From a virus: a DNA stretch of 26,553 bases. Of this stretch, positions 4,130 to 26,553 are shown one piece after another. Within the stretch, counting starts at the first letter, position 1; each line of letters begins with the position of its first letter. The notes below the pieces were generated by a model that was given only the letters and a program-made list of their open reading frames with translations, ran no database searches and was not told the origin of the DNA. A program made the position numbers and the translations under genes. The stretch spans positions 1-26,553 of the IMG/VR virus record IMGVR_UViG_3300044701_005549; one strand, given 5' to 3'.

Positions 4130-6094
4130 ATGGCAAAGATAAATTCAAATCCAATTAAAAATTATGTTACGCCCGGAGATTTAGCAAATTCTCCCACGAC
4201 TGTTTCAGCTGCTTCAGCTGCTTCAAATTTATCTGATAAGCCAAAATCACAAATCAATCGTCGAGGCGTTCTTACTCTTCCGTCAAGAATAGTGTACGCT
4301 CTTGATGTACCTGAAATAAAAAATTTAATTGCAAATTTCATTTACAATTACTATGTTCCGAGCGAAGTCGTCAAAGACAAAGACATACTAAGTGATGAAA
4401 CTTTGCGACAAAAAATGAATATTTCACAAAACATAGTTTTTAAGAAAGACTATAGCTACACTGATGAAAAATGGTTGTTTGAAGACAACATAAAGCAAAT
4501 TCTCTTAGAAAAGATACCCAGATATATAAAAATACAATTCACAGCACCCAAAAAAGAAAAAATACCTTATGCTTCTGGTGCTCCGAACTTGATACGTAAC
4601 AATATCACAAGCATCGTAAAAGAAGAGACGTTTTCTTCAAACTACTACACTTCTCTTTATTTCAATAACGCAGATTTAGATAAAAAAACAAGTGTATTCT
4701 TTGAAAGTAAACAAAATTACACCAAGCAAATCGAAGCTGTGGGTGAAGCAGATCCTGTCATAGCTGATGCGATGGCAAACCAGCCTGCAATCACAAAAGG
4801 AGCAAACTTTTTCAAGTACGGACAAGGTATCATAAAAGGAAATAGCTATTTAGAAAGCTTAAAAAAGCTTAGCACAACGACACAGGTAAGCAATAACTTA
4901 GTTCATGATCTGATCGTCACAGCGACAGGAAATCCGCTTACTATCAATGAAAAAACTTTTAAATCTTTTCTTTCTGGTTCTGCTAAGATACAGGAAAACG
5001 TCACAGATAACTCTATCACTGAAGAAGAGTTTAAGACAAGCCTACAGTACTATGAGATAGTTTCTTCTGAAGACAGCAGCAGTGTGAATCCTGCGAAGTA
5101 TGAGATTGTGGGCTATACAATAGAAAAGTTTGAAATTTTTCCTGATGGATCAATAAAAAACCATGATCCGATTATAATAGAAAATCCAACAACAAATTCT
5201 GTTTTAGATTTAAATGTCAGATACGGCACAGTTTACGCATATCATGTCAGGACAATCATGAGCATGACATACGCTGCTGTGAACAATTTGACATATGAAA
5301 CAGCAATGGTCAAGTCGCTCGTTGCTTCAAAGCCAGTCATAGCTTATGCTGAAACTTTAGAAAATGTCGGTCCGCCTCCTCCTGTAGAGCTAAAAGCGAT
5401 ATGGGATTATGACAGGATCAATCCGCTTACATCGCAGTATGATCCTGTAACAGGAGGGCAGTATAAAAACACTGGAAAAATGGGAACTTTGTTATTACAC
5501 TGGTCTTTTCCGATAAATTCTCAGATGGATATAAAGAAATTCCAAGTCTTCAGAAGAAGAAATGTAGACGAGCCGTTTGAACTGATCAAAATGTTCGATT
5601 TCAACGACGCCATGGTAAAATTCCCAGATCTAGAAGAGAGCATAAATTTTAGCGCCGTAGAAAACACTGGAACAGAACCAAGAAAGAGCTATTATGACGA
5701 TGAGTTCACCAAAAATTCTGATTTCATTTATGCCATCGCAGCGATAGACGCGCACGGACTAACTTCTAATTATTCAGAACAAATAAGAGTCACTTTTGAC
5801 GTCTATAAGAACAAGCTATCGTCCACAATCATTTCTTCTGCGGGGGCGCCAAAACAATATCCCAACCTTTTCTTAAAAGAAGATCTTTTCGTGGACACAA
5901 TGAAAACTTCTAACAAAAAAACGCTGGAGGTGTATTTCACACCAGACTGTTATTCTACTTCGAGGAATGACCTGAGCGAAGTTAAAGTCGTGAAGTCCCA
6001 CAACAAAGACAAGACAAAGTATAAGATTAACTTTGTGAATTTAGACAATCAAGACAGTGCACAACTCGACGTCAAGATCAACGACAGAAGATGA
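4130..6094 (+). CDS. Virion structural protein with fibronectin-III-like segment (654 aa)
   Basis: ATG 4130 lies one base after the stop of the 1299-residue gene, so translation is probably coupled; no good Shine-Dalgarno is visible. The N-terminal ~60 residues are Ser/Ala-rich. A segment at about residues 413-555 begins with PPPPVELKAIWDYD and contains LLLHWSFP, KKFQVFRRRN and FIYAIAAIDAHGLTSNYSEQ. That pattern of a Trp strand, a Tyr/Phe core strand, AIDxxGxxSxYS and a closing strand resembles a fibronectin type III fold. Such domains are common on tail and baseplate proteins of large phages, where they contact surfaces or neighbouring subunits. The other two thirds are not recognisable. The product probably acts in the tail or baseplate; the exact role is unknown. 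Confidence 0.78.
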   Translation: MAKINSNPIKNYVTPGDLANSPTTVSAASAASNLSDKPKSQINRRGVLTLPSRIVYALDVPEIKNLIANFIYNYYVPSEVVKDKDILSDETLRQKMNISQNIVFKKDYSYTDEKWLFEDNIKQILLEKIPRYIKIQFTAPKKEKIPYASGAPNLIRNNITSIVKEETFSSNYYTSLYFNNADLDKKTSVFFESKQNYTKQIEAVGEADPVIADAMANQPAITKGANFFKYGQGIIKGNSYLESLKKLSTTTQVSNNLVHDLIVTATGNPLTINEKTFKSFLSGSAKIQENVTDNSITEEEFKTSLQYYEIVSSEDSSSVNPAKYEIVGYTIEKFEIFPDGSIKNHDPIIIENPTTNSVLDLNVRYGTVYAYHVRTIMSMTYAAVNNLTYETAMVKSLVASKPVIAYAETLENVGPPPPVELKAIWDYDRINPLTSQYDPVTGGQYKNTGKMGTLLLHWSFPINSQMDIKKFQVFRRRNVDEPFELIKMFDFNDAMVKFPDLEESINFSAVENTGTEPRKSYYDDEFTKNSDFIYAIAAIDAHGLTSNYSEQIRVTFDVYKNKLSSTIISSAGAPKQYPNLFLKEDLFVDTMKTSNKKTLEVYFTPDCYSTSRNDLSEVKVVKSHNKDKTKYKINFVNLDNQDSAQLDVKINDRR

Positions 6095-6124
6095 AGAAGC
6101 AAATAATTAGACTACAAAATTTAC

Positions 6125-6144
6125 TTACCAATAGTTACCAAATA
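6125..6144 (+). repeat. Imperfect 10-bp tandem direct repeat in an intergenic leader
   Basis: TTACCAATAG is followed directly by TTACCAAATA in the 68-base gap before the gene at 6163. It could be a small operator or chance in AT-rich DNA. AGGTGA (6151-6156), just downstream, is the likely ribosome-binding site for that gene. Confidence 0.25.
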
Positions 6145-6162
6145 AGATTTAGGTGAAGAATT

Positions 6163-6897
6163 ATGGGTTTCTTAGATCACAGCACTAACAACATCATACT
6201 TGATGCAGTGTTGACAGACACAGGTCGACAATTCATGTCGAGAAATGATGGAAGCTTTTCTCTAGCAAAGTTTGCGCTGGGCGATGATGAAGTAAATTAC
6301 AACATCATAAAAAAGTACGGAAGAACTGTAGGCAAAGAAAAGATAGAGAAAAATACTCCTGTTTTTGAAGCCCTAACTAATCAATCTCAAGCCCAAAAAT
6401 ATAAGCTTATCAGTGTTTCTAATCCAAATTTGATAAGACTTCCAAATCTTGTCTTGGCAGGAGACTCTTCTCTTACAAGCAACACAGTCACGATCTACAC
6501 GACAACAGCAGTTGGCAGACAGACACAGTCTCGTATCAACTTATCTCAGTCAGCTTTGAATGAAACGTCTATAGATGTTGAGCTCAGAGATGAAATATTC
6601 ATGATAGATATACCTAACCTTTTCTTGCGGTTAGGCGCAAATTTGTCTCCAAACAACATCGACAATCAGCAGCGTGCATACTACATCTTACCGAAATCAG
6701 GTGTTACGTCAACGGGTGGCGCAATAATTGATTTCACTATTGCAGCCAAATCTTTGACAACAACGCTGTTTGAAGTGTACGGAACAGGAACATCAAAGAA
6801 CACTATAAAAACTTACGTTAGAGTGACTGGTATCAACTCCGGTGCAGTGAAAGATATTGCAATAGACATAAAGCAAGCTACAGCAACTACTACATAA
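6163..6897 (+). CDS. Putative virion structural protein with conserved LDAVLTDTGRQF N-terminus (244 aa)
   Basis: ATG 6163 is preceded by AGGTGA six bases upstream, the best ribosome-binding site in the left block. The N-terminus contains NNIILDAVLTDTGRQFMSRN and then FSLAKFALGDDEVNY. I know this pattern from structural proteins encoded next to tail and baseplate genes in large environmental phages, where the function is unassigned. The remainder is Thr/Ser/Asn-rich and beta-like, ending in GAVKDIAIDIKQATATTT, with no signal peptide or membrane segment. It sits between the FN3-like protein and two proteins that share a C-terminal module, so a baseplate or fibre-attachment role is likely but not shown. 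Confidence 0.75.
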   Translation: MGFLDHSTNNIILDAVLTDTGRQFMSRNDGSFSLAKFALGDDEVNYNIIKKYGRTVGKEKIEKNTPVFEALTNQSQAQKYKLISVSNPNLIRLPNLVLAGDSSLTSNTVTIYTTTAVGRQTQSRINLSQSALNETSIDVELRDEIFMIDIPNLFLRLGANLSPNNIDNQQRAYYILPKSGVTSTGGAIIDFTIAAKSLTTTLFEVYGTGTSKNTIKTYVRVTGINSGAVKDIAIDIKQATATTT

Positions 6898-8160: not shown

Positions 8161-10692
8161 ATGTCAATATTCAAGATAAATCAAACTGACTTTCAAACCG
8201 TAACGGTCGCGACAAATCCATCTAGATTTTATTCTTCAGGATCGGGCGGCGTCACGGGCTCAGTTCACATCTTTGCTCGAAGGTCTTCAATAGAAAAAGA
8301 CGTCAGGCCGTCCGACACATTTTCTAATCCTACTTTTAATGATTCTGACCTTTCTATTAAGCTTGATGACATTAAACACTCGTTGATCTCAAGTCCCTCG
8401 ACTGACATATTAGGAAAAATAGAATCATATTTGGGCGATGTCAATGAACAGTCTGTGTCGCAAAGAAAGCAAAAGACTCTTGACGTCGGACGATACATTC
8501 CAGTGCCTGTGAGCGGTGGCATCGAAGATGCATATCCAACAAAAAATTATCTAAAAAAAACGATTATAAGAGAAAATTTATCAAAGCACTATAGGTGTGC
8601 ATATCCATCTATAGATTGGGGATATTGCAATTATCACAGCTTAAATTTCTTCTCAGCTTCAGGTATTCCGCATGACACAGCGTTGCTATACCCTAACTAC
8701 GATAACGGAGTTATCCACGAAGGGTATGTGTCAGGAACATATACACCGAGCGGATCTTTTTCTTTTGATTTTTACATTAACCCTCGATATAAAGCTTTGA
8801 ATGGCAAAGGTCATTTTGATGCTGGAACTATTTTTCATCTACACAAAGTGTACGCTCTTTCGCTCATAACTGGATCTAAGAAAGACGAGAACGGATTACC
8901 CGTAGGCTTTAGATTGATGTTACAGCTTAGCCACAGCGCTGGAATTTCTCCAAGTGCTGCTGCGACAGGAAACTTTCCGAACAATCTTACATTTTTGTCA
9001 GATGATAACTCTCTTTCATGGAACAATTGGCATCATGCTGTCGTTCGGTGGGGCACCGACACTATCAACGCTGGAACGGGTTCTTTCAACATCGACGGAA
9101 TCGATAGAGGATACTTTGTTGTTCCCTCAGGGACGATCGCTCCGAAGATCTATCCATCTGAAAACAATCCGGACGTTCTCTGCATCGGAAATTATCTCGG
9201 CTCTACGGGATACCTCGGGTTGACAAACAAAGGAGTGACAGCGCATAGCTTGTTCTTTTCTAAACGCACGTCTGATGCAAAAGGAACACTTGTTCTCACA
9301 GGAAGCACAAGCGAATATGAGCCATTTTCTCCTTCATACACACTAAATCATCCGTTACAAGCAGAAGTCCACGATCTATGCATAAAGAGGTACTACGTTG
9401 CCGATGCAGACATCGCATCTTCTGGTTCTAACGGGTTGAAAGAAATTGACGATTCGATCGCTTTTTATCTCCCTCCTTTTTTTGTTGAAGAAGCGCCTGT
9501 TAGAAGGAAAGATCCGGGGATGTGGGACTCAGGTGTGCACTTTAGTTTAAACAGAAGCTCACATGGAACAAATTTCACACCGTTCAACTTACAAATGTCT
9601 TTTGGCTCTGATGCTCATCTCATCAATATCGAAAATTTCTTAAAAGATTTTGCAAACGGCAGTTTTTCAAACATAATAAATCTCAATAGAACATCAAACA
9701 TCATAAAAAATCTCACATCCAAAGATGCGAACGAGCACGTTTATCATTTTGACGTCTTGAGAAAAAGAAACTTATCGATTCTACCATGCGACGACGGAAA
9801 TTTCTATCCTGACTACGCACTATTGAACGATGAGTCAAAAAAGAAGTTTTTTGTAGATGACACAGGCTCTCCCGCGCCCGGATACATCAGCTTAAACGCG
9901 CTCATGTCTATCACGTCTTCCATTGTCGAACCCAACGCAAATGAAGAAAGAAAACATTTAATAAATGACACACTCGTGACTTATAAGTGGCTGCCTGAAG
10001 ATCCGACAAGCACACAATTTTTGTCATTCATGCCAGCTTATAAATACAACGAAAAGCTGGACGCACTTGCTTTGGCGAGCGGAACAATAGACCAATTTAG
10101 AGACTTACATGAATCTGCTCCCTTAGGCTCTCTTATCAGAACTAAAGATCCAAGCTCTAATCAAGTCACGATGTTTGACGTGAGCAATCTTTATTATGGA
10201 TTAAATATTTTGCCAGGGTCGTTTACCCTGAAAGATTCAAGCTTGTCAGGTTCAGCCGGTGCAATAAGCGTCACCATCAAAGATGACGGGCACGGAACTT
10301 TATACAGGTCTGATAGCCTCACACAAAACTGTTCTTGGAATGCAGTGGGGACTATATTTTATAATGAGGGAATCATAGTCATCAAAAATCCTCACTTGTA
10401 TTTCTTCGGCAAAGACGGATTCGAGATGTCATTCAAGGGTGAGCAAAACATACACGTGCTGCGCTTCGATGTTCTTGCACCATCTAATCACTTGAACTCT
10501 TCAAGCAACCCTTCTTTCGCTGAAGTTCCATCAACACTTCGACCGAACGAGTACGATTCTAAGTTTGTTTATGTCACAGGAATCAATTTTCATGACGATA
10601 ATCTTAACGTGATCATGAAAACTCAGCTCGCACAGCCCATCATGAAACGTCACTCTGATAAGCTAGCTTTTAAAGTAAAGTATGACTTTTAA
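8161..10692 (+). CDS. Laminin-G/concanavalin-like virion protein, probable tail fibre or baseplate component (843 aa)
   Basis: ATG 8161 follows the prior stop by 37 bases with a weak leader. Residues ~195-420 look like a laminin-G/concanavalin A-like jelly roll: an opening strand GSFSFDFYINPR, a central SWNNWHHAVVRW with the typical W-x-H-x-A-V signature, FNIDGIDRG, and a closing DVLCIGNYLG. Such domains bind glycans or serve as structural beta-sandwiches on fibres. The C-terminus (from about residue 770) carries SSNPSF, FVYVTGINFHDDN and LAFKVKYDF, the module also found in the preceding protein. The central part (440-770) is unassigned. The stop overlaps the next start by one base (TAATG). 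A role in host-surface contact is inferred from the LamG-like domain and the neighbours. Confidence 0.82.
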   Translation: MSIFKINQTDFQTVTVATNPSRFYSSGSGGVTGSVHIFARRSSIEKDVRPSDTFSNPTFNDSDLSIKLDDIKHSLISSPSTDILGKIESYLGDVNEQSVSQRKQKTLDVGRYIPVPVSGGIEDAYPTKNYLKKTIIRENLSKHYRCAYPSIDWGYCNYHSLNFFSASGIPHDTALLYPNYDNGVIHEGYVSGTYTPSGSFSFDFYINPRYKALNGKGHFDAGTIFHLHKVYALSLITGSKKDENGLPVGFRLMLQLSHSAGISPSAAATGNFPNNLTFLSDDNSLSWNNWHHAVVRWGTDTINAGTGSFNIDGIDRGYFVVPSGTIAPKIYPSENNPDVLCIGNYLGSTGYLGLTNKGVTAHSLFFSKRTSDAKGTLVLTGSTSEYEPFSPSYTLNHPLQAEVHDLCIKRYYVADADIASSGSNGLKEIDDSIAFYLPPFFVEEAPVRRKDPGMWDSGVHFSLNRSSHGTNFTPFNLQMSFGSDAHLINIENFLKDFANGSFSNIINLNRTSNIIKNLTSKDANEHVYHFDVLRKRNLSILPCDDGNFYPDYALLNDESKKKFFVDDTGSPAPGYISLNALMSITSSIVEPNANEERKHLINDTLVTYKWLPEDPTSTQFLSFMPAYKYNEKLDALALASGTIDQFRDLHESAPLGSLIRTKDPSSNQVTMFDVSNLYYGLNILPGSFTLKDSSLSGSAGAISVTIKDDGHGTLYRSDSLTQNCSWNAVGTIFYNEGIIVIKNPHLYFFGKDGFEMSFKGEQNIHVLRFDVLAPSNHLNSSSNPSFAEVPSTLRPNEYDSKFVYVTGINFHDDNLNVIMKTQLAQPIMKRHSDKLAFKVKYDF
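10039..10046 (+). promoter_or_regulatory. Possible late promoter inside a coding region (TATAAATA)
   Basis: TATAAATA matches the T4 late-promoter -10 element exactly. It lies inside the laminin-G-like gene, about 650 bases before the head-completion nuclease. Because it also encodes Tyr-Lys-Tyr in frame, it may be chance. A promoter here would let the DNA-handling cassette be transcribed late. Confidence 0.25.
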
Positions 10693-11093
10693 TGGTGATT
10701 CAAAAGAAGAAAAAGACTCGAAAAAGAAAAGGATACCAAAGGGGAATTTACAGCTCTCCCATTGCAGGAATCTGTAAATTTAGATCTTCATGGGAAAAAA
10801 AATACATGGAGCACCTCGACGCAGATCCGCAAGTCTCTTCGTGGTCTTATGAAAAACTAGTGATCGAATACGTCTCGAACAGAGCGACAGGGAAGATCCG
10901 TAAATATTATCCCGATTTCTTCATAGAGATGAAGTCAGGCTCTAGGGTTGTCGTTGAAATAAAGCAAAAAAGAAAATTACAGACTGCACCTGTCAAGAAA
11001 AAAACTGCCGCCGCTTTGAAGTGGTGCGCAGAGAACAAAGCTGAATTTTTGCTAATTACAGAAGTCGAGCTAAAAGAACTCGGGCTCTTGTAA
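10692..11093 (+). CDS. gp4-like head-completion nuclease, PD-(D/E)XK fold (133 aa)
   Basis: The start ATG 10692 overlaps the previous stop by one base. After a very basic N-terminus (KKKKTRKRK), residues 30-98 show FRSSWEKKYMEHLD, VSSWSYEKLVIEY, GKIRKYYPDFF and VVVEIKQKRK. The arrangement E35, PD at 74-75, then E89-I-K91 is a PD-(D/E)XK nuclease core. It matches the consensus I know for the T4 gp4 head-completion family, which is also related to TnsA-type endonuclease N-terminal domains. gp4 family members act on filled heads before tail joining. Length is close to T4 gp4 (about 150 residues). The main alternative is a branch-trimming nuclease working with the recombination genes that follow. 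Family assignment is fairly secure, the exact role less so. Confidence 0.75.
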   Translation: MVIQKKKKTRKRKGYQRGIYSSPIAGICKFRSSWEKKYMEHLDADPQVSSWSYEKLVIEYVSNRATGKIRKYYPDFFIEMKSGSRVVVEIKQKRKLQTAPVKKKTAAALKWCAENKAEFLLITEVELKELGLL

Positions 11094-11176: not shown

Positions 11177-11740
11177 ATGCTGAACCTGCACATAGGATTA
11201 GATGTCAGCACTTCTTGCACAGGCGTCGCGGTGCTGAGCGTCGCAGCCGATGGGGCAACGCAGATCTTATGCGTAGATCGAATTGAATACAAAAAGTGCA
11301 ACACGCTGTGGGAAAAAGCTGACGTCACCTCACTTTATCTCAAAGAAATTTTTGAAAAGTTTAGTGGAAATTACACAGTAGCGCTTGAAGAACCACTCAT
11401 GGGTTTTAGGACGGGCATGTCTTCTGCTGCGACGATAACGACTCTTATGAGATTCAACGGGATCGTGTCGTACATTTCTAGAGGAATATTCAAAGTTGAT
11501 CCGCTTTATATTTCTTCCTCGTCTGCTCGAAAAGCTTGTGGAATCAAAATGCAGAAGACTTCAAAGGCAGGGATGTCAGGAAAAGAACAGGTCTTTAAAC
11601 ACATGTCTGAGCACGACTTGAAGGACGTTGAGTGGCCAAAAAAGAAAAACGGAGAGCCTGTCGAGTGGAGCAGAGACGCCACAGACGCTTATGTCATTGC
11701 GAAAGCGTCAAGCATGCAAGCTGTGAAAAATTTGACCTGA
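11177..11740 (+). CDS. RuvC-like Holliday junction resolvase, RNase H fold (187 aa)
   Basis: The N-terminus IGLDVSTSCTGVAVL is the first RuvC/RNase H strand pair with catalytic D9. VALEEPL gives the second acidic position (E71/E72), and RDATDAYVIAKA gives the C-terminal acidic pair (D167, D170). Order and spacing fit a RuvC-type four-way-junction endonuclease, slightly longer than bacterial RuvC (about 170 residues). It would resolve branched replication and recombination intermediates before packaging. T4 uses an unrelated enzyme, endonuclease VII (gp49), so this looks like a functional replacement. It lies between a head-completion nuclease and the primase, with the primase 19 bases downstream. 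No strong ribosome-binding site is seen before ATG 11177. Other RNase H-fold roles cannot be excluded from sequence alone. Confidence 0.83.
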   Translation: MLNLHIGLDVSTSCTGVAVLSVAADGATQILCVDRIEYKKCNTLWEKADVTSLYLKEIFEKFSGNYTVALEEPLMGFRTGMSSAATITTLMRFNGIVSYISRGIFKVDPLYISSSSARKACGIKMQKTSKAGMSGKEQVFKHMSEHDLKDVEWPKKKNGEPVEWSRDATDAYVIAKASSMQAVKNLT

Positions 11741-11759: not shown

Positions 11760-12731
11760 ATGCAATCTCTCACGGACAGAATAGCATTCTATGAATCGAT
11801 ATTTGGGAGAGGTCGCATCTCAGGAAATGGAAAGAATTTTGATGTAAGATGCCCGATCTGCAGCCCGGTTGATCCTACAAAAAAGAAGTTAGCAATTAGA
11901 ACGACAGATGACGCGAACCACTGCTGGTCTTGTGGTTGGAAAGCAAGATCCCTGGCTCCTCTCCTCAGAAAATACGGCACGCCCGAGCAGATGGCAGCGT
12001 ACAGAGACATCACAGGCAAAAATTATCAATCTCCAATCACAGCTGACGTCGAAAAAACGCAGAAAGTTGAGCTACCCAAAGATTTCAAGCTGTTGCATTT
12101 AGCGCCCGAAACAGATCCAGACGTGAAAGCTGCTTGGAGGTACGTTTATTCAAGAAAGATCACTGATCGTGATGCGTGGTACTTCAAGCTAGGCGTCTCT
12201 GACGAGCCGAAATGGAAGAGAAGAGTCATCATGCCGTCTTTTGATTCTTCTGGAAATGTGAATTACTTCATCGCAAGGGCAATCGACAAAGACAAGAAAC
12301 CGAAATACGATAACCCTGAGGTTGACAAGAACCCCGTCGTTTTCAACGAACTGAACATCGACTGGAAGCGACGTCTTACCCTCGTAGAGGGTGCTTTTGA
12401 CTTGATAAAGTGCCCTGAAAATTCGACTGCCCTTCTTGGATCTGACCTTGACGAACGTCATGAGATCTTCAACAAGATACTTCTAAATGAAACGCCCGTA
12501 GCGCTCGCGTTAGACGGTGACATGTGGGACAGAAAAACTCCTAAAATAGCAAAGAAGCTCATGGAATACAACGTCGACACTGTCATAGTTGATGTTAGAC
12601 CTTGGGGTGATCCAGGCAGCATGTCAAAATCAGAATTTGAGGACGCGCTCAAAGACGCTAGGCCGATGAGCTGGGACGACAATTTTAATAGACGTCTCAA
12701 AAAAGCGCTTGAAGTTAGATTCAGCATTTGA
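11760..12731 (+). CDS. DNA primase, zinc-finger plus TOPRIM (gp61-like, 323 aa)
   Basis: The protein synthesises RNA primers for lagging-strand replication. The N-terminal zinc-binding domain has CPIC (C31, C34) and HCWSC (C55, C58), the CHC2-type pattern of phage and bacterial primases. The TOPRIM part has LVEGAFD (E210) and LALDGDMWD (D252, D254), the metal-binding Glu and Asp-x-Asp. Length is near that of T4 gp61 (342 residues), and there is no fused helicase domain, so a separate gp41-like helicase is expected elsewhere in the genome. It sits between the RuvC-like resolvase and the Mre11-Rad50 fusion in a replication/recombination cassette. Zinc ligands and TOPRIM acids are intact, so it is probably active. 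Confidence 0.93.
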   Translation: MQSLTDRIAFYESIFGRGRISGNGKNFDVRCPICSPVDPTKKKLAIRTTDDANHCWSCGWKARSLAPLLRKYGTPEQMAAYRDITGKNYQSPITADVEKTQKVELPKDFKLLHLAPETDPDVKAAWRYVYSRKITDRDAWYFKLGVSDEPKWKRRVIMPSFDSSGNVNYFIARAIDKDKKPKYDNPEVDKNPVVFNELNIDWKRRLTLVEGAFDLIKCPENSTALLGSDLDERHEIFNKILLNETPVALALDGDMWDRKTPKIAKKLMEYNVDTVIVDVRPWGDPGSMSKSEFEDALKDARPMSWDDNFNRRLKKALEVRFSI

Positions 12732-12761: not shown

Positions 12762-15700
12762 ATGAAGATGCGCATAGCACACATTGCCGACGTGCACATT
12801 AGATCTTTGTCTAGGCACGACGAGTACAAAGAAATATTCACAGCTTTTGCAGAAAGCTGCAAGAAGAAAAAAGTAGATCACATCTTTGTGGGCGGTGACA
12901 TATACCACACGAAGACGTCAGGAATATCACCTGAGTACATAGATTTTCTTAAATGGTGGCTTGAAGAGCTGAGCTCTGTTGCGCCTACACACCTAATTTT
13001 AGGCAATCATGATGGAAATTTAGTAAATCCATCGAGGCAAGACGCTATCTCACCGATCGTTTCTGCTCTAAATAATCCGAGAGTCTTTCTTTACAAGAAG
13101 AGCGGCGTTTATGAATTTGAAAAAGGATTTAACTGGTGTGTCTTTAGCCTCTTTGACGAAGAGGGCTGGGGGACTGTAAAACCACAAGACGGAAAATTTA
13201 ACATCGCTTGTTACCATGGACCTGTGAGGGGATCTGTGACAGAGACCGGCTGGGACATCGTAGATGGCATCACAGTTGATTATTTCAAAGATTATGACCT
13301 TTGTTTTCTAGGAGACATCCATCGAAAACAAATCTTAGGGTACAAAAATGAAAAACCGTGGATTGCATACAGCGGTTGCCCTATACAGCAAAATTACGCA
13401 GAAGAGCTCGAGCACGGTTATTTGCTTTGGGAGATAAATGGAAAGAGCTGGGACACAACATTTGTAAAGTTGCCTAATCCAAAACCCTACGTCACATTAG
13501 ACTGGAATGGTTCACATGACGACTTGTCCGCAGCTGCCTCGTCGTATCCTAAATTCTCTAGATTTCGAGTAAGATCTTCTATTCCAATTTCACAAAGCGA
13601 TGTCAAGTCAATCTTAGACACGATTAAATCTACACACACACCGACAGAAATCACATTCAAGTCTGACGTAAAGCCTGATAGCTCGACGATCAAGTCGCAT
13701 AGCACTATTTTAGAAAAAACGAGCATACGTTCGCACGATACAGTCATAAATCTTTTACAAAATTTCTGTAAAGAGAACAAGTACACGAACATAGATTGGA
13801 AAATAGTAGAATCTGAAGTAAAAAAATATCTAGCAACAGCTCTCTTAAACGACGAAGTTTCTAGAGGGTCAAAGTGGTCTTTAAGGCACTTAAAGTGGGA
13901 CAATTTGTTCGCGTATGGACCAGATAACGAAATAGATTTTTCTAAATTGTCTGGCATCGTTGGAATCTTTGGATCTAATCGGATCGGCAAGTCTTCTGTC
14001 GTCGGATCGATCATGTATTCGTTGTTTAACACCACAGACAGAGGATCTGTAAAAAATCTGCAAGTCTGCAACGTTAGAAAGCAATATTGCTCCACACGAG
14101 CAATATTTGATCACGATGGAAAGACTTACATAACTGAGCGGCAGACAGCAAAATCTTACAACAAGAAAGGTGCTCTAGGAGCGTCAACGTCTCTTAATCT
14201 TTTTAGAATGTCGGATGACGGTGAGGCAGAAGACCTATGCGGAGAGCAAAGAACTGATACAGAAAAAATCATAAAGTCGCTCTTAGGTTCTCCTGAAGAT
14301 TTTCTATTGACATCTTTGTCTGCACAGGGCGAGACAGGCGCTTTTATGCTGCTGTCATCAGCAAAAAGAAGAGCCCTTCTGTCGAAGTTTCTTGATTTAG
14401 ACATCTTTGATAGAATGTACGAAGTTGCTAACAAAGAGCTGTTGGTCTATAAGGCAAGATTAAAGAATCTTCCTGAAAAAGATTGGTCAACATTAGAAGA
14501 AAAATATGAGAGGACAAGGAGCGAGCTTGAGATTGCTGTCGAAGATTATAGCGAGAAAATCTGTGCGGTACAATCCAGCCTCTCATCTTATAGAGCAGAG
14601 CTTGCTAGTCATCAGAATTTCAAGCCTGTCACTTTGACAGATGTCGAGCAACAAGAAAAAGCTGTCACATCTCTAGAAAAGCAGGCAAAGAGCTGCACGA
14701 ACAAAATAAAAGAACTAAGCGAAGAAATCGAAACGCTGAAGTCTAAGCTCGATTCAATCGAGCCGCTCCTTGACTCAGATGAGCTTGCATCTTTAAAAGC
14801 AAGCCTCGCTTCGATTGAAGGCATCGAAAAATCGATAGACAACCTACGACACATCCACGACAAAGAATCGCTTTCACTTCAGCAGCAACAAAAGTCGCTA
14901 AAATTGCTCGATGAAGTTCCCTGTGGTGACGAATTTCCGACGTGCAAGTTTATCAAAGATGCGCACACGGCAAAGTCAAAGATTTTAAAGCAGGCTGAAG
15001 CAGAAAGCTCTGCTCGAGAGTCTCTTGAGCGTGCAGTAGAGTCTTTGAAAAATTTTAATAAAGAAAACATACTTTTAAAAATCGCAAAAAGAGAAAAGGC
15101 AAAAGAATTTTCAGCTAGCATGGCGCTGGAAATCTCAAAGAAAGAAACTGAAATAGAAAAAATTAGATCTTCTTGTGATTCTTGCACGGCCAGCCTAGCA
15201 GGCGCGCTTGAGAAGCTTGACCACCTGAGAGAAGCTCTAAAAAATGAAGAAAACTATGAGGTTGTAAACCTCAGGATAAAAATAGAAGATTTATCTAAGA
15301 GCATCAAGAAGTGGGATCAAGAAAAAATTTTGGCCGCGACAGAAAAGGGAAAAGTTGCGTCAGATTTAGAAAAACTGAGGCATGAAAAAGAGCAGAGGAG
15401 CGCAGTTCTCACTGAGATGAAAAATCTAGAAATGATCTGTGAAGCTTTCTCGAAGAAAGGCTTGCCACTCATCATCACAAAGTCTCAGCTGCCCGTCATA
15501 AATTCAGAGATTTCTAAGATACTGAGCGGAATCGTAGATTTTACTGTAGAACTAGAAAATGACGATGAGACAGACTCAACAGAAATCTACATCAATTATG
15601 GAGATTCGAAGAGAGTCATCGAACTGTGCTCAGGCATGGAAAAAACGATTAGCGCAATCGCAATAAGAGTCGCTTTGATCAACGTTTCTACTCTTCCAAA

Positions 15701-15902
15701 GTCTGACATGCTCATCATAGACGAAGGCTTTGGAACTATGGATGAATCTGGCGTTGAATCATGTAACAGGCTCCTTACAAGTCTAAAGAAATATTTTAGA
15801 ATAATCTTAGTAATTACGCACGTCGATGGAATAAAAGACATGGCAGATCACATGATCGAAATTTCAAAGAATGAGAAGGACTCACATGTGGTGTCCACAT
15901 GA
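12762..15902 (+). CDS. Fused Mre11-Rad50 (SbcD-SbcC, gp47-gp46) recombination nuclease (1046 aa)
   Basis: One uninterrupted frame encodes both halves of the DNA-end-processing complex. Residues 1-~240 are the Mre11/SbcD metallophosphoesterase: IADVHIR (D10, H12), GGDIYH (D46), GNHDG (N82, H83), YHGP (H152) and GDIH (D185, H187). Residues ~370-550 are the Rad50 N-lobe with Walker A GSNRIGKSS (K410). About 550-895 is antiparallel coiled coil with an apex at C721-x6-C728. About 895-1046 is the C-lobe with signature ELCSGMEK (near 954-961), Walker B MLIIDEGFGTMD (near 983-994) and a switch His in ITH (H1020). In T4 these are two genes, 47 and 46. The product should resect ends for recombination-dependent replication. 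ATG 12762 is used; ATG 12768 is possible. The stop overlaps the next start (ATGA). Confidence 0.94.
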   Translation: MKMRIAHIADVHIRSLSRHDEYKEIFTAFAESCKKKKVDHIFVGGDIYHTKTSGISPEYIDFLKWWLEELSSVAPTHLILGNHDGNLVNPSRQDAISPIVSALNNPRVFLYKKSGVYEFEKGFNWCVFSLFDEEGWGTVKPQDGKFNIACYHGPVRGSVTETGWDIVDGITVDYFKDYDLCFLGDIHRKQILGYKNEKPWIAYSGCPIQQNYAEELEHGYLLWEINGKSWDTTFVKLPNPKPYVTLDWNGSHDDLSAAASSYPKFSRFRVRSSIPISQSDVKSILDTIKSTHTPTEITFKSDVKPDSSTIKSHSTILEKTSIRSHDTVINLLQNFCKENKYTNIDWKIVESEVKKYLATALLNDEVSRGSKWSLRHLKWDNLFAYGPDNEIDFSKLSGIVGIFGSNRIGKSSVVGSIMYSLFNTTDRGSVKNLQVCNVRKQYCSTRAIFDHDGKTYITERQTAKSYNKKGALGASTSLNLFRMSDDGEAEDLCGEQRTDTEKIIKSLLGSPEDFLLTSLSAQGETGAFMLLSSAKRRALLSKFLDLDIFDRMYEVANKELLVYKARLKNLPEKDWSTLEEKYERTRSELEIAVEDYSEKICAVQSSLSSYRAELASHQNFKPVTLTDVEQQEKAVTSLEKQAKSCTNKIKELSEEIETLKSKLDSIEPLLDSDELASLKASLASIEGIEKSIDNLRHIHDKESLSLQQQQKSLKLLDEVPCGDEFPTCKFIKDAHTAKSKILKQAEAESSARESLERAVESLKNFNKENILLKIAKREKAKEFSASMALEISKKETEIEKIRSSCDSCTASLAGALEKLDHLREALKNEENYEVVNLRIKIEDLSKSIKKWDQEKILAATEKGKVASDLEKLRHEKEQRSAVLTEMKNLEMICEAFSKKGLPLIITKSQLPVINSEISKILSGIVDFTVELENDDETDSTEIYINYGDSKRVIELCSGMEKTISAIAIRVALINVSTLPKSDMLIIDEGFGTMDESGVESCNRLLTSLKKYFRIILVITHVDGIKDMADHMIEISKNEKDSHVVST

Positions 15903-16192
15903 CGTGGAAAGATTATTTGAACAATAAGCTGATCAAAGAGTGTGATGGATACTGCATCATAAAACCTAAGAATTTTCGTGAAATTACACCAATCGCTTGT
16001 CCTGTTTGTGACTACCTCCTACGAACAGGACAAGATGAAAAATCTTATAGACAATTTTCGTGCTGCGAAAGCTGCGAGCTTCTTTGGGCTCGGCCAAGGC
16101 AGGAAGAGTGGAGAAATGGCTGGAGACCTGATAAAGAGCAGGTCATGAACAAGGTGGGTAGAAAAACCCTTAATGTCGACATCAAAATTTAA
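15899..16192 (+). CDS. Small zinc-finger protein (97 aa), function unknown
   Basis: Two Cys pairs, CPVC (C34, C37) and CESC (C56, C59), 18 residues apart, form a likely zinc ribbon. The C-terminal half is basic with several Trp (WARPRQEEWRNGW), suggesting nucleic-acid or protein binding. Its ATG overlaps the stop of the Mre11-Rad50 fusion (ATGA), which implies translational coupling and perhaps a joint function. It could be a recombination accessory factor or a small transcription regulator; nothing in the sequence decides. The product is complete and in frame. Confidence 0.72.
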   Translation: MTWKDYLNNKLIKECDGYCIIKPKNFREITPIACPVCDYLLRTGQDEKSYRQFSCCESCELLWARPRQEEWRNGWRPDKEQVMNKVGRKTLNVDIKI

Positions 16193-25297: not shown

Positions 25298-26553
25298 ATG
25301 AAAAGCTTTACGATTGATCAGCTTGCACAGGGCATCAGAGAGCGCCACGTCGGCGCTGAGCGTGCCCGTCTAACAGAGAAATGGAGCCGCACAGGCCTCC
25401 TCCGTGGCCTCGACGGCACACGCAGAGAGGTCATGTCACAGCTCCTCGAGAACCAGGCAGCGCAGGTCCTCAAGGAGAGCAACAGCCTCTCGACCGGCGG
25501 CGGCAACGTCGCATCGAGCGGCCAGATCCAGGGCTTCACGAACATCGCCTTCCCGATCGTCCGCAGAGTGTTCGGCGGCCTCGTCGCCAACGAGCTCGTC
25601 TCGATCCAGCCGATGAGCCTCCCCTCAGGCCTCATCTTCTACTTGGATTACACCTACGGCACGAACGTCGGTTCGGCACAGAGCGGTGAGTCAGTTTACA
25701 CCCGCGGACAGTCTGTCTACAACAACCCAACGGGCAAGGGCGTCCAGAGCGGATCGCTTGCAACGGGCGGCATGTACGACCTCGCAGGCACGGGCTACTC
25801 CAAGGTGACGGGCTCGCTCGTCGGAACCTCGCTCGCAACAGCGACGACCGCGCTCGGTTACTGGTCGGGCGCAGACGCGAACGGTCCATTCGCAGCAGGC
25901 ATGCTCTCGGGCTCGACTGACTTCAGCGGCTCGAACGCTCGCTACATGGACTTCGACGGACAGATCGAGACAGCGCTCGCCACGAACGCCCTCGATGCTT
26001 GCTTCCTCTACGTCTCGTCTTCTCTCTTCACGACAGCGAACGCAGCGGCTGACCTCCTCGCAGTGGATCAGATCGCCCTCTTCGCAGGCGTGACCGGAGC
26101 GACGGCATGGGGTGAGACCTACCAGGGTGGAACAGGAGTGCTCAACCTCCGTCGCCTCAACAAGCGCGGAAACTGGTCGCTCAACGGCTTCACCGTCGAC
26201 CCACTGAACGGAACACACGTGCAGATGGTCGTCAAGGGCGCAAACGCGGCGCAGCTCGTCGGTGCAGCAGGCGGACGCTTCACGTTCTCCCTCAAGGCAG
26301 GCCTCACGGTCGACAGCAACAGCGGAGCGACGCTCACTGTTCCCTCGTTCGAGTCTGACTTCGGTTCGACGCCGCAGCCTGCAATCCCCGAGATCGACAT
26401 CAAGATCGAGTCGATCGCAATCACGGCAACGACCCGCAAGCTCCGCGCACGTTGGTCGCCAGAGCTCGCACAGGACCTCAACGCCTACCACAGCATGGAC
26501 GCTGAGGTTGAGCTCACCTCGATCCTCTCGGAGCAGATCGCCCTCGAGATCGA
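25298..26553 (+). CDS. Major capsid protein (gp23-like), 3' partial (418 residues in window)
   Basis: This HK97-fold shell protein starts at ATG 25298 and has no stop before the window ends. Family blocks include NIAFPIVRRVFGGLVANELV, IQPMSLPSGLIFYLDYTYG and, near the edge, RWSPELAQDLNAYHSMDAEV followed by ELTSILSEQIALEI, close to the T4 gp23 consensus. VLKE|SNSL around E60 fits a gp21 cleavage site near the position of the T4 cut (E65), so residues 1-60 are probably a propeptide. Ile is read as ATC in every codon but one, and Leu mostly as CTC, in DNA near 55-60% GC, unlike the left-hand genes. This is typical of selection for high expression. The C-terminal part lies beyond the window. Confidence 0.95.
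   Translation, partial: MKSFTIDQLAQGIRERHVGAERARLTEKWSRTGLLRGLDGTRREVMSQLLENQAAQVLKESNSLSTGGGNVASSGQIQGFTNIAFPIVRRVFGGLVANELVSIQPMSLPSGLIFYLDYTYGTNVGSAQSGESVYTRGQSVYNNPTGKGVQSGSLATGGMYDLAGTGYSKVTGSLVGTSLATATTALGYWSGADANGPFAAGMLSGSTDFSGSNARYMDFDGQIETALATNALDACFLYVSSSLFTTANAAADLLAVDQIALFAGVTGATAWGETYQGGTGVLNLRRLNKRGNWSLNGFTVDPLNGTHVQMVVKGANAAQLVGAAGGRFTFSLKAGLTVDSNSGATLTVPSFESDFGSTPQPAIPEIDIKIESIAITATTRKLRARWSPELAQDLNAYHSMDAEVELTSILSEQIALEI

Follow-up and report, generated by a model that had tools for sequence, protein, structure and literature searches.

A single-chain Mre11-Rad50 protein encoded by an uncultured phage and the re-division of its gene in relatives

The window, the whole 26,553-nucleotide stretch of viral DNA analysed here (IMG/VR record IMGVR_UViG_3300044701_005549), carries a fused Mre11-Rad50 (MR; SbcD-SbcC) gene. 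The analysis confirmed the fusion, and also the anatomy assigned to it in a preliminary description made from the sequence; the gene adds one more member to a kind already described and stands out by its hook, motif V and signature. The less expected result is that the gene has been split again in relatives. This re-splitting adds a case to a phenomenon already known; it resembles split nrdA but has a new target gene, and the copy in the window is unaffected.

Both halves of the complex in one open frame

The gene and its parts are as follows.

12762..15902, + strand: fused Mre11-Rad50 (SbcD-SbcC) gene (single open frame; Pfam, PHROG and NCBIfam matches to both halves; relatives)
12762..13472, + strand: Mre11/SbcD phosphoesterase domain, residues 1-237 (PF00149, AlphaFold2 model, PDB fold matches to SbcD)
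12786..12797, + strand: phosphoesterase motif I, ADVH, D10/H12 (both invariant in 65 sequences)
12891..12908, + strand: motif II, GGDIYH, D46 (motif positions, 65-sequence alignment)
13002..13013, + strand: motif III, GNHD, N82/H83 (motif positions, 65-sequence alignment)
13212..13223, + strand: motif IV, YHGP, H152 (motif positions, 65-sequence alignment)
13311..13322, + strand: motif V, GDIH replacing GHxH, D185/H187 (motif positions, alignment, R555 parallel)
13488..13847, + strand: Mre11 cap (about residues 243-318) and Rad50-binding helix-loop-helix (325-362) (AlphaFold2 secondary structure; comparison with Mre11 architecture, PMC3175470)
13848..13871, + strand: short linker, residues 363-370 (AlphaFold2 model)
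13872..14351, + strand: Rad50 N-lobe, residues 371-530 (Pfam, motifs, alignment, AlphaFold2, fold matches)
13971-13997, + strand: Walker A, GSNRIGKSS, residues 404-412 (motif positions)
14322-14336, + strand: Q-loop, Q522 (motif positions)
14358..15524, + strand: Rad50 coiled coil, arms 533-718 and 732-921 (AlphaFold2 model)
14919..14945, + strand: apex hook, PCGDEFPTC, C721 and C728 (predicted apex loop 719-731; alignment)
15543..15899, + strand: Rad50 C-lobe, residues 928-1046 (Pfam, motifs, alignment, AlphaFold2)
15627-15644, + strand: signature, CSGMEK, with SGMEK at residues 957-961 (motif positions)
15714-15743, + strand: Walker B/D-loop, IIDEGFGTMD, residues 985-994 (motif positions)
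15816-15827, + strand: H-loop, THVD, H1020 (motif positions)

The frame reads from an ATG through 1046 codons with zero internal stops. Pfam Metallophos (PF00149) matched residues 3-188 of the product (E 1.4e-13), and weak matches, each under its own cut-off, were obtained with AAA_23 at 380-663 and SbcC_Walker_B at 948-1006. Among PHROG profiles, SbcD-like phrog_100 covered residues 1-357 (1e-30) and SbcC-like phrog_77 covered 281-1044 (7.7e-62). The NCBIfam SbcC/Rad50 and SbcD models also matched, with scores far under their equivalog cut-offs, and the fusion is thus a divergent MR protein. The single frame and the domain matches bear out the proposal that nuclease and ATPase occupy one polypeptide, rather than the separate genes of canonical SbcCD and gp46-gp47; a fixed 1:1 ratio of the halves, also proposed, follows necessarily from the single chain.

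The single chain was modelled with AlphaFold2 from a 65-sequence alignment, giving a mean pLDDT of 84.4 and a pTM of only 0.54. The predicted layout comprises the phosphoesterase domain (1-237), cap (~243-318), helix-loop-helix (325-362) and ~8 linker residues, followed by the N-lobe (371-530), two coiled-coil arms (533-718 and 732-921) and the C-lobe (928-1046). Matches of the model to folds in the PDB were MR, SMC and SbcD structures (7zr1, E 2e-20; 7yzp; 3auy; 7dog). Motifs and model agree with the earlier assignment of the order nuclease, N-lobe, coiled coil, C-lobe. The link at about residues 240-370 had been taken for the normal Mre11 C-terminal region without a long spacer and this is what the model displays, the cap and helix-loop-helix being followed by a linker of only ~8 residues. 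The protein has the features of the Mimivirus R555 kind: an Mre11-like part and then a Rad50-like part in one open frame, the two halves of the P-loop ATPase (Walker A; Walker B with the signature), and, in the model, a retained cap and helix-loop-helix with a short linker to Rad50.

The preliminary description had also counted all five phosphoesterase motifs and all Rad50 motifs. All are present, but motif V is GDIH rather than the canonical GHxH, and it is so throughout the family, with every ligand position occupied. Residues D10, H12, D46, N82, H83, H152, D185 and H187 of the nuclease and N406, G409, K410, S411, Q522, S957, G958, E960, D987, E988 and D994 of the Rad50 half are invariant in the 65-sequence alignment. 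The ABC signature departs from canonical SGGE/SGGQ, reading SGME in 93 of 99 sequences and SGMEK in the window. At the apex, the hook is C-x6-C in place of the canonical CxxC; C728 is invariant in the 65 sequences, and the C-x6-C spacing occurs in most relatives, with C-x2-C in the Mel-JY01 clade. C721 and C728 are precisely the cysteines of the predicted loop (719-731) that joins the two arms; this pair is the hook by position, and it may bind zinc. A second CxxC (CDSC, residues 805-808) was rejected as a zinc hook as it is unconserved and lies away from the apex. The hook consensus in loci L008-L086 is VPCGDxFPTCKFIKDxH, the sister clade (Mel-JY01, L087-L103) having C-x2-C at the same place. 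The hook peptide found no match in the phage collection that was searched.

Relatives and known fusions

The search for single chains in metagenomic viruses that had been recommended yielded at least 579 confirmed relatives in IMG/VR, and nearly all of the best 80 span residues 1-1044. An uninterrupted frame of ~1045 amino acids was present in 106 distinct relatives. That two adjacent genes were joined artificially by a missed stop or frameshift near residues 240-370, a refutation foreseen at the outset and conceivable in a viral contig of 26,553 bases assembled from a metagenome, has a negligible probability because the same joint is open in these 106 relatives, which come from independent contigs at 26-66% identity, and in the isolate Microcystis phage Mel-JY01, where the fusion is one CDS. 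Annotated records with relatives include, beside Mel-JY01, Tenacibaculum phage PTm1 and two megaphage genomes. A few relatives come from MAG contigs that were binned as bacterial or archaeal; where primase, RuvC or terminase genes lie alongside, the contig looks like that of a phage. Plasmid homologues amounted to two weak partial matches. A separate observation concerns a 287-kb contig binned as Bacteroidales (L112), in which positions 6001-6834 near a primase gene encode a stand-alone Mre11-like protein of 277 amino acids with GHIH; the contig is likely to be a phage with an unfused relative.

The claim that the architecture is new did not survive, earlier description of such a fusion in relatives having been named at the outset as a refutation: N-terminal Mre11/C-terminal Rad50 fusions were described in 2011 in Mimivirus R555, bacteria, plasmids and eukaryotes (Yoshida, Claverie and Ogata, 2011; PMC3175470) and the relatives in IMG/VR number at least 579. 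The same work noted an Mre11/Rad50 fusion in Bacillus phage 0305phi8-36, a linker requirement of 9-12 residues, and the replacement of Pyrococcus His206 by Asp in R555, which converts GHxH to GDxH. It also proposed that abundant aquatic R555-like sequences are phage-borne and found primase genes on the same scaffolds (PMC3175470), a proposal which the data for the window and its relatives fit. Compared with R555 through its published description (PMC3175470), the window protein shares the Mre11-then-Rad50 chain, cap and helix-loop-helix, short linker, GDxH, aquatic viral setting and nearby primase, but has 1046 amino acids against 1351, belongs to a tailed-phage lineage with T4-type head genes and bears the C-x6-C hook. 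The Mel-JY01 protein (WWT39521.1, annotated as 'AAA domain containing protein') is the same fusion with primase close upstream and 26-29% identity over the full length, but has a C-x2-C hook and other surrounding tail genes. The T4 gp47/gp46, SPO1-type and T5-type SbcD/SbcC proteins form the same two-subunit machine with a probable role in recombination-dependent replication, but are encoded by two genes. Among two-gene phages, BSP38 and S-SSM7 have a CPxC hook and SEGE signature in contrast to C-x6-C and SGMEK in the window, and motif V in those that were inspected is GHYH, or GDLH in Vibrio phage D254.

The gene is divided again in some relatives

When frame continuity was checked, relatives were found in which the gene consists of two ORFs with the break away from the Mre11/Rad50 border. 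The break falls between GDIHxxQ (motif V) and YPGSxxQQN, which is the turn of a beta-hairpin at window residues 190-203.

13344..13355, + strand: turn of beta-hairpin 190-195/198-203, the insertion or split site in relatives, intact and unoccupied in the window (locus comparison, AlphaFold2)

In split loci the first fragment gains a tail such as DVELEIDESDLSKYPGAEVIG and the second fragment begins M(S/G)KKIKIRVKKPWIAYPG. A targeted scan, for which part of the loci were fetched with the tail as query, produced an ordered series. At its start an intact endonuclease gene occupies the gap (L141/L144, L145, L005), and L147 has a similar-looking ORF that is unclassified.

L141, 2961-3878: inserted ORF, Vsr-like, matching PHROG homing endonucleases
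L144, 5173-6090: inserted ORF, Vsr-like, matching PHROG homing endonucleases
L145, 5132-6016: inserted ORF, Vsr-like, matching PHROG homing endonucleases
L147, 1952-2842: inserted ORF, unclassified and Cys-rich, of similar place and size
L005, 8665-9582: inserted ORF, TnsA-like with zinc fingers, homing-endonuclease-like
L137, 5175-5324: endonuclease remnant between the MR fragments, both ends of an L141-type ORF joined in frame, 50 codons

In L137 and L139 the endonuclease is deleted internally and only its two ends are left. Gaps of 87-121 nt with at most a short remnant follow in L024, L138 and L142, and the series ends in compact overlapping genes, often at NTGA. The site is empty in L010/L011, L184 and the window, so that an endonuclease ORF lies inside a coding sequence which close relatives possess without it. 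In relatives, then, the gene has very probably been targeted repeatedly by homing endonucleases, whose insertion divides the nuclease domain.

The 171 parsed loci comprised 129 fused and 42 split genes, or 106 and 28 after removal of near-duplicates; none of these numbers is a frequency, because the tail served as query for some of the loci. Eight were split among the best 80 of the at least 579 relatives, which were fetched with a general alignment. A quick maximum-likelihood tree with SH-aLRT support only requires the gene to have switched between the fused and the split state seven times or more, all forced by well-supported branches with gain and loss indistinguishable, and the four distinct occupied loci fell in four places. 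Clades as separate as those of L141/L138 and of L024/L142/L137 have tails that are almost the same, which indicates spread of one cassette. When other annotated phage genes were searched for the motif of the tail, nothing significant was returned. No report of a split Mre11 or SbcD was found in literature of which coverage was incomplete.

Probable reassembly of the fragments

Over all pairs, pN/pS was 0.34 for the tail, 0.37 for the head and 0.34 for the flanking body with synonymous sites near saturation, and in 23 closer pairs the value for the short head reached 0.71. Thus, there is a good case that the tail is constrained, whereas that for the head is less secure. The L134 protein was modelled as a read-through in which the stop codon was read as a residue and the two chains were artificially joined. 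In this model the tail formed a strand-helix-strand and the head a further strand, both within the SbcD fold, and the pLDDT of the block was ~91-95. The model suggests that tail and head assemble by non-covalent strand complementation, and the fragments in split relatives probably reassemble through these strands.

It is unlikely that split relatives still make a full-length protein by frameshifting, stop readthrough or intein or intron splicing. The fragments of L024, L132 and L134 share a frame with a single stop between them, which favours this alternative, but across the loci the frame relation is -1, +1 or 0, all three stop codons are used and a start codon adjoins the second fragment; programmed frameshifting or readthrough was rejected as a general explanation on account of this variation in frame and stop codon. 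A group I or II intron at the split site also was rejected, with no Rfam match in L005 or the window, and so was a split intein, since the tails have much less than the length of one and do not carry the residues found at intein ends.

In the boldest reading of the split loci, mobile homing-endonuclease cassettes would dock time and again in the fused Mre11-Rad50 gene. They would split the nuclease domain near the active site and supply a beta-alpha-beta tail that matches a beta-strand head, the pieces snapping back together as a working nuclease without intron or intein and the endonuclease decaying while the split stays. We give this account as a whole about an even chance of being correct. 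In Aeromonas phage Aeh1, nrdA is split by mobE and yields a functional two-piece enzyme (PMC2988022), and a paper by Crona et al. (2011, as cited in PMC3267527) states in its title that interaction domains derive from the mobile element. As in Aeh1, a homing endonuclease lies within the gene for an essential phage enzyme and two polypeptides would have to reassemble. Unlike Aeh1, the target is a fused Mre11-Rad50, the endonuclease is Vsr/TnsA-like instead of the HNH MobE, and many loci have lost the endonuclease yet keep the split.

Genome context and proposed function

The neighbours of the fusion are listed below.

11177..11740, + strand: RuvC-like Holliday-junction resolvase (phrog_827/159; RuvC-primase order in 65 loci)
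11760..12731, + strand: DNA primase, next upstream of the fusion (phrog_47, E 1e-38; same adjacent order in 97 loci)
15899..16192, + strand: small Cys-rich (zinc-finger-like) protein (ATG overlaps the fusion stop; order MR-zinc finger in 76 loci)

The conserved order is RuvC-like, primase, MR fusion, small Cys-rich protein, terminase, portal and protease. The small Cys-rich protein gave no match in Pfam or PHROG. Elsewhere in the window, 10692-11093 encodes a TnsA-like endonuclease/T4 gp4-like head-closure protein, whose product has a local match of 36% identity to the nuclease part of the MR-inserted endonuclease of L005 (LR756508). After the head genes, an open-ended frame of 418 codons (25298-26551) probably encodes the major capsid protein and is truncated where the contig stops, and a long minus-strand ORF over it is probably spurious. 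As the window is a 26.6-kb fragment, the question of a second MR was examined in 10 large relatives (142-369 kb). Each of the 10 has one SbcC-like and one SbcD-like region; seven carry both in a single ORF, and the other three in a split pair. One of the 10 (G003) has an extra, very weak SbcC-profile match elsewhere. RecA is encoded in nine of the 10.

By analogy with the role of T4 gp46/47 (PMC3175470), the complement of one MR per genome, RecA and the gene order support a resection and tethering enzyme for recombination-dependent replication, a reading also supported by the domains and motifs, the fold matches, the conservation of the whole fused frame and the viral fusion precedents (PMC3175470). 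Very probably, the window gene gives the phage its own and only Mre11-Rad50 (SbcDC) complex, made as one chain that resects and tethers ends for RecA/UvsX-dependent replication and repair. Activity, dimer geometry and replication role are predicted here from sequence features. Two chains would pair through the Mre11 nuclease and Rad50 ATPase heads; in each, the nuclease lies N-terminal to the Rad50 head, and the cap and helix-loop-helix would dock on the coiled-coil root. ATP-driven engagement of the heads would gate the two-metal nuclease, which would open hairpins or blocked ends and resect DNA ends. Tethering of ends or of sister genomes would fall to the coiled coil and the cysteine hook at its apex. 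Phage RecA/UvsX would take up the resulting 3′ single strands for recombination-dependent replication and repair, in parallel with T4 gp46/47.

As GDIH (the His206-to-Asp change), SGMEK in place of SGGE, and C-x6-C differ from characterised MR proteins, the chemistry or ATP coupling could differ. A drift of the fused protein to a non-nuclease, structural role of SMC-like tethering would accommodate the GDIH and SGMEK substitutions and the two-piece nuclease domain of some relatives. It is nonetheless improbable, for the metal-ligand positions, including Asp at 185, are all invariant in 65 sequences, and the split forms retain metal ligands and have bodies under purifying selection (pN/pS ~0.34). 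Still less probable is a protein that acts mainly against host DNA or host defence, for instance in degradation of the host chromosome: MR nucleases can degrade DNA ends generally, but the conserved place beside primase and RuvC and the RecA of nine in 10 large relatives indicate phage DNA metabolism.

Discussion

Although the fusion is a known architecture, it is a standard MR form in a large group of uncultured aquatic phages, where it has a hook, motif V and signature of its own. A natural single-chain MR would be useful for structural work because its stoichiometry is fixed. Moreover, one gene family offers empty, occupied, decayed and compact states of homing-endonuclease insertion, and this nested series of splits makes the tolerance of phages for insertions in important enzymes directly testable. 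If the docking-site reading is true, a complex brought together by evolution is being cut apart by mobile elements at a different point, and the enzyme which they hit corresponds to T4 gp46/47, which may themselves play a part in homing.
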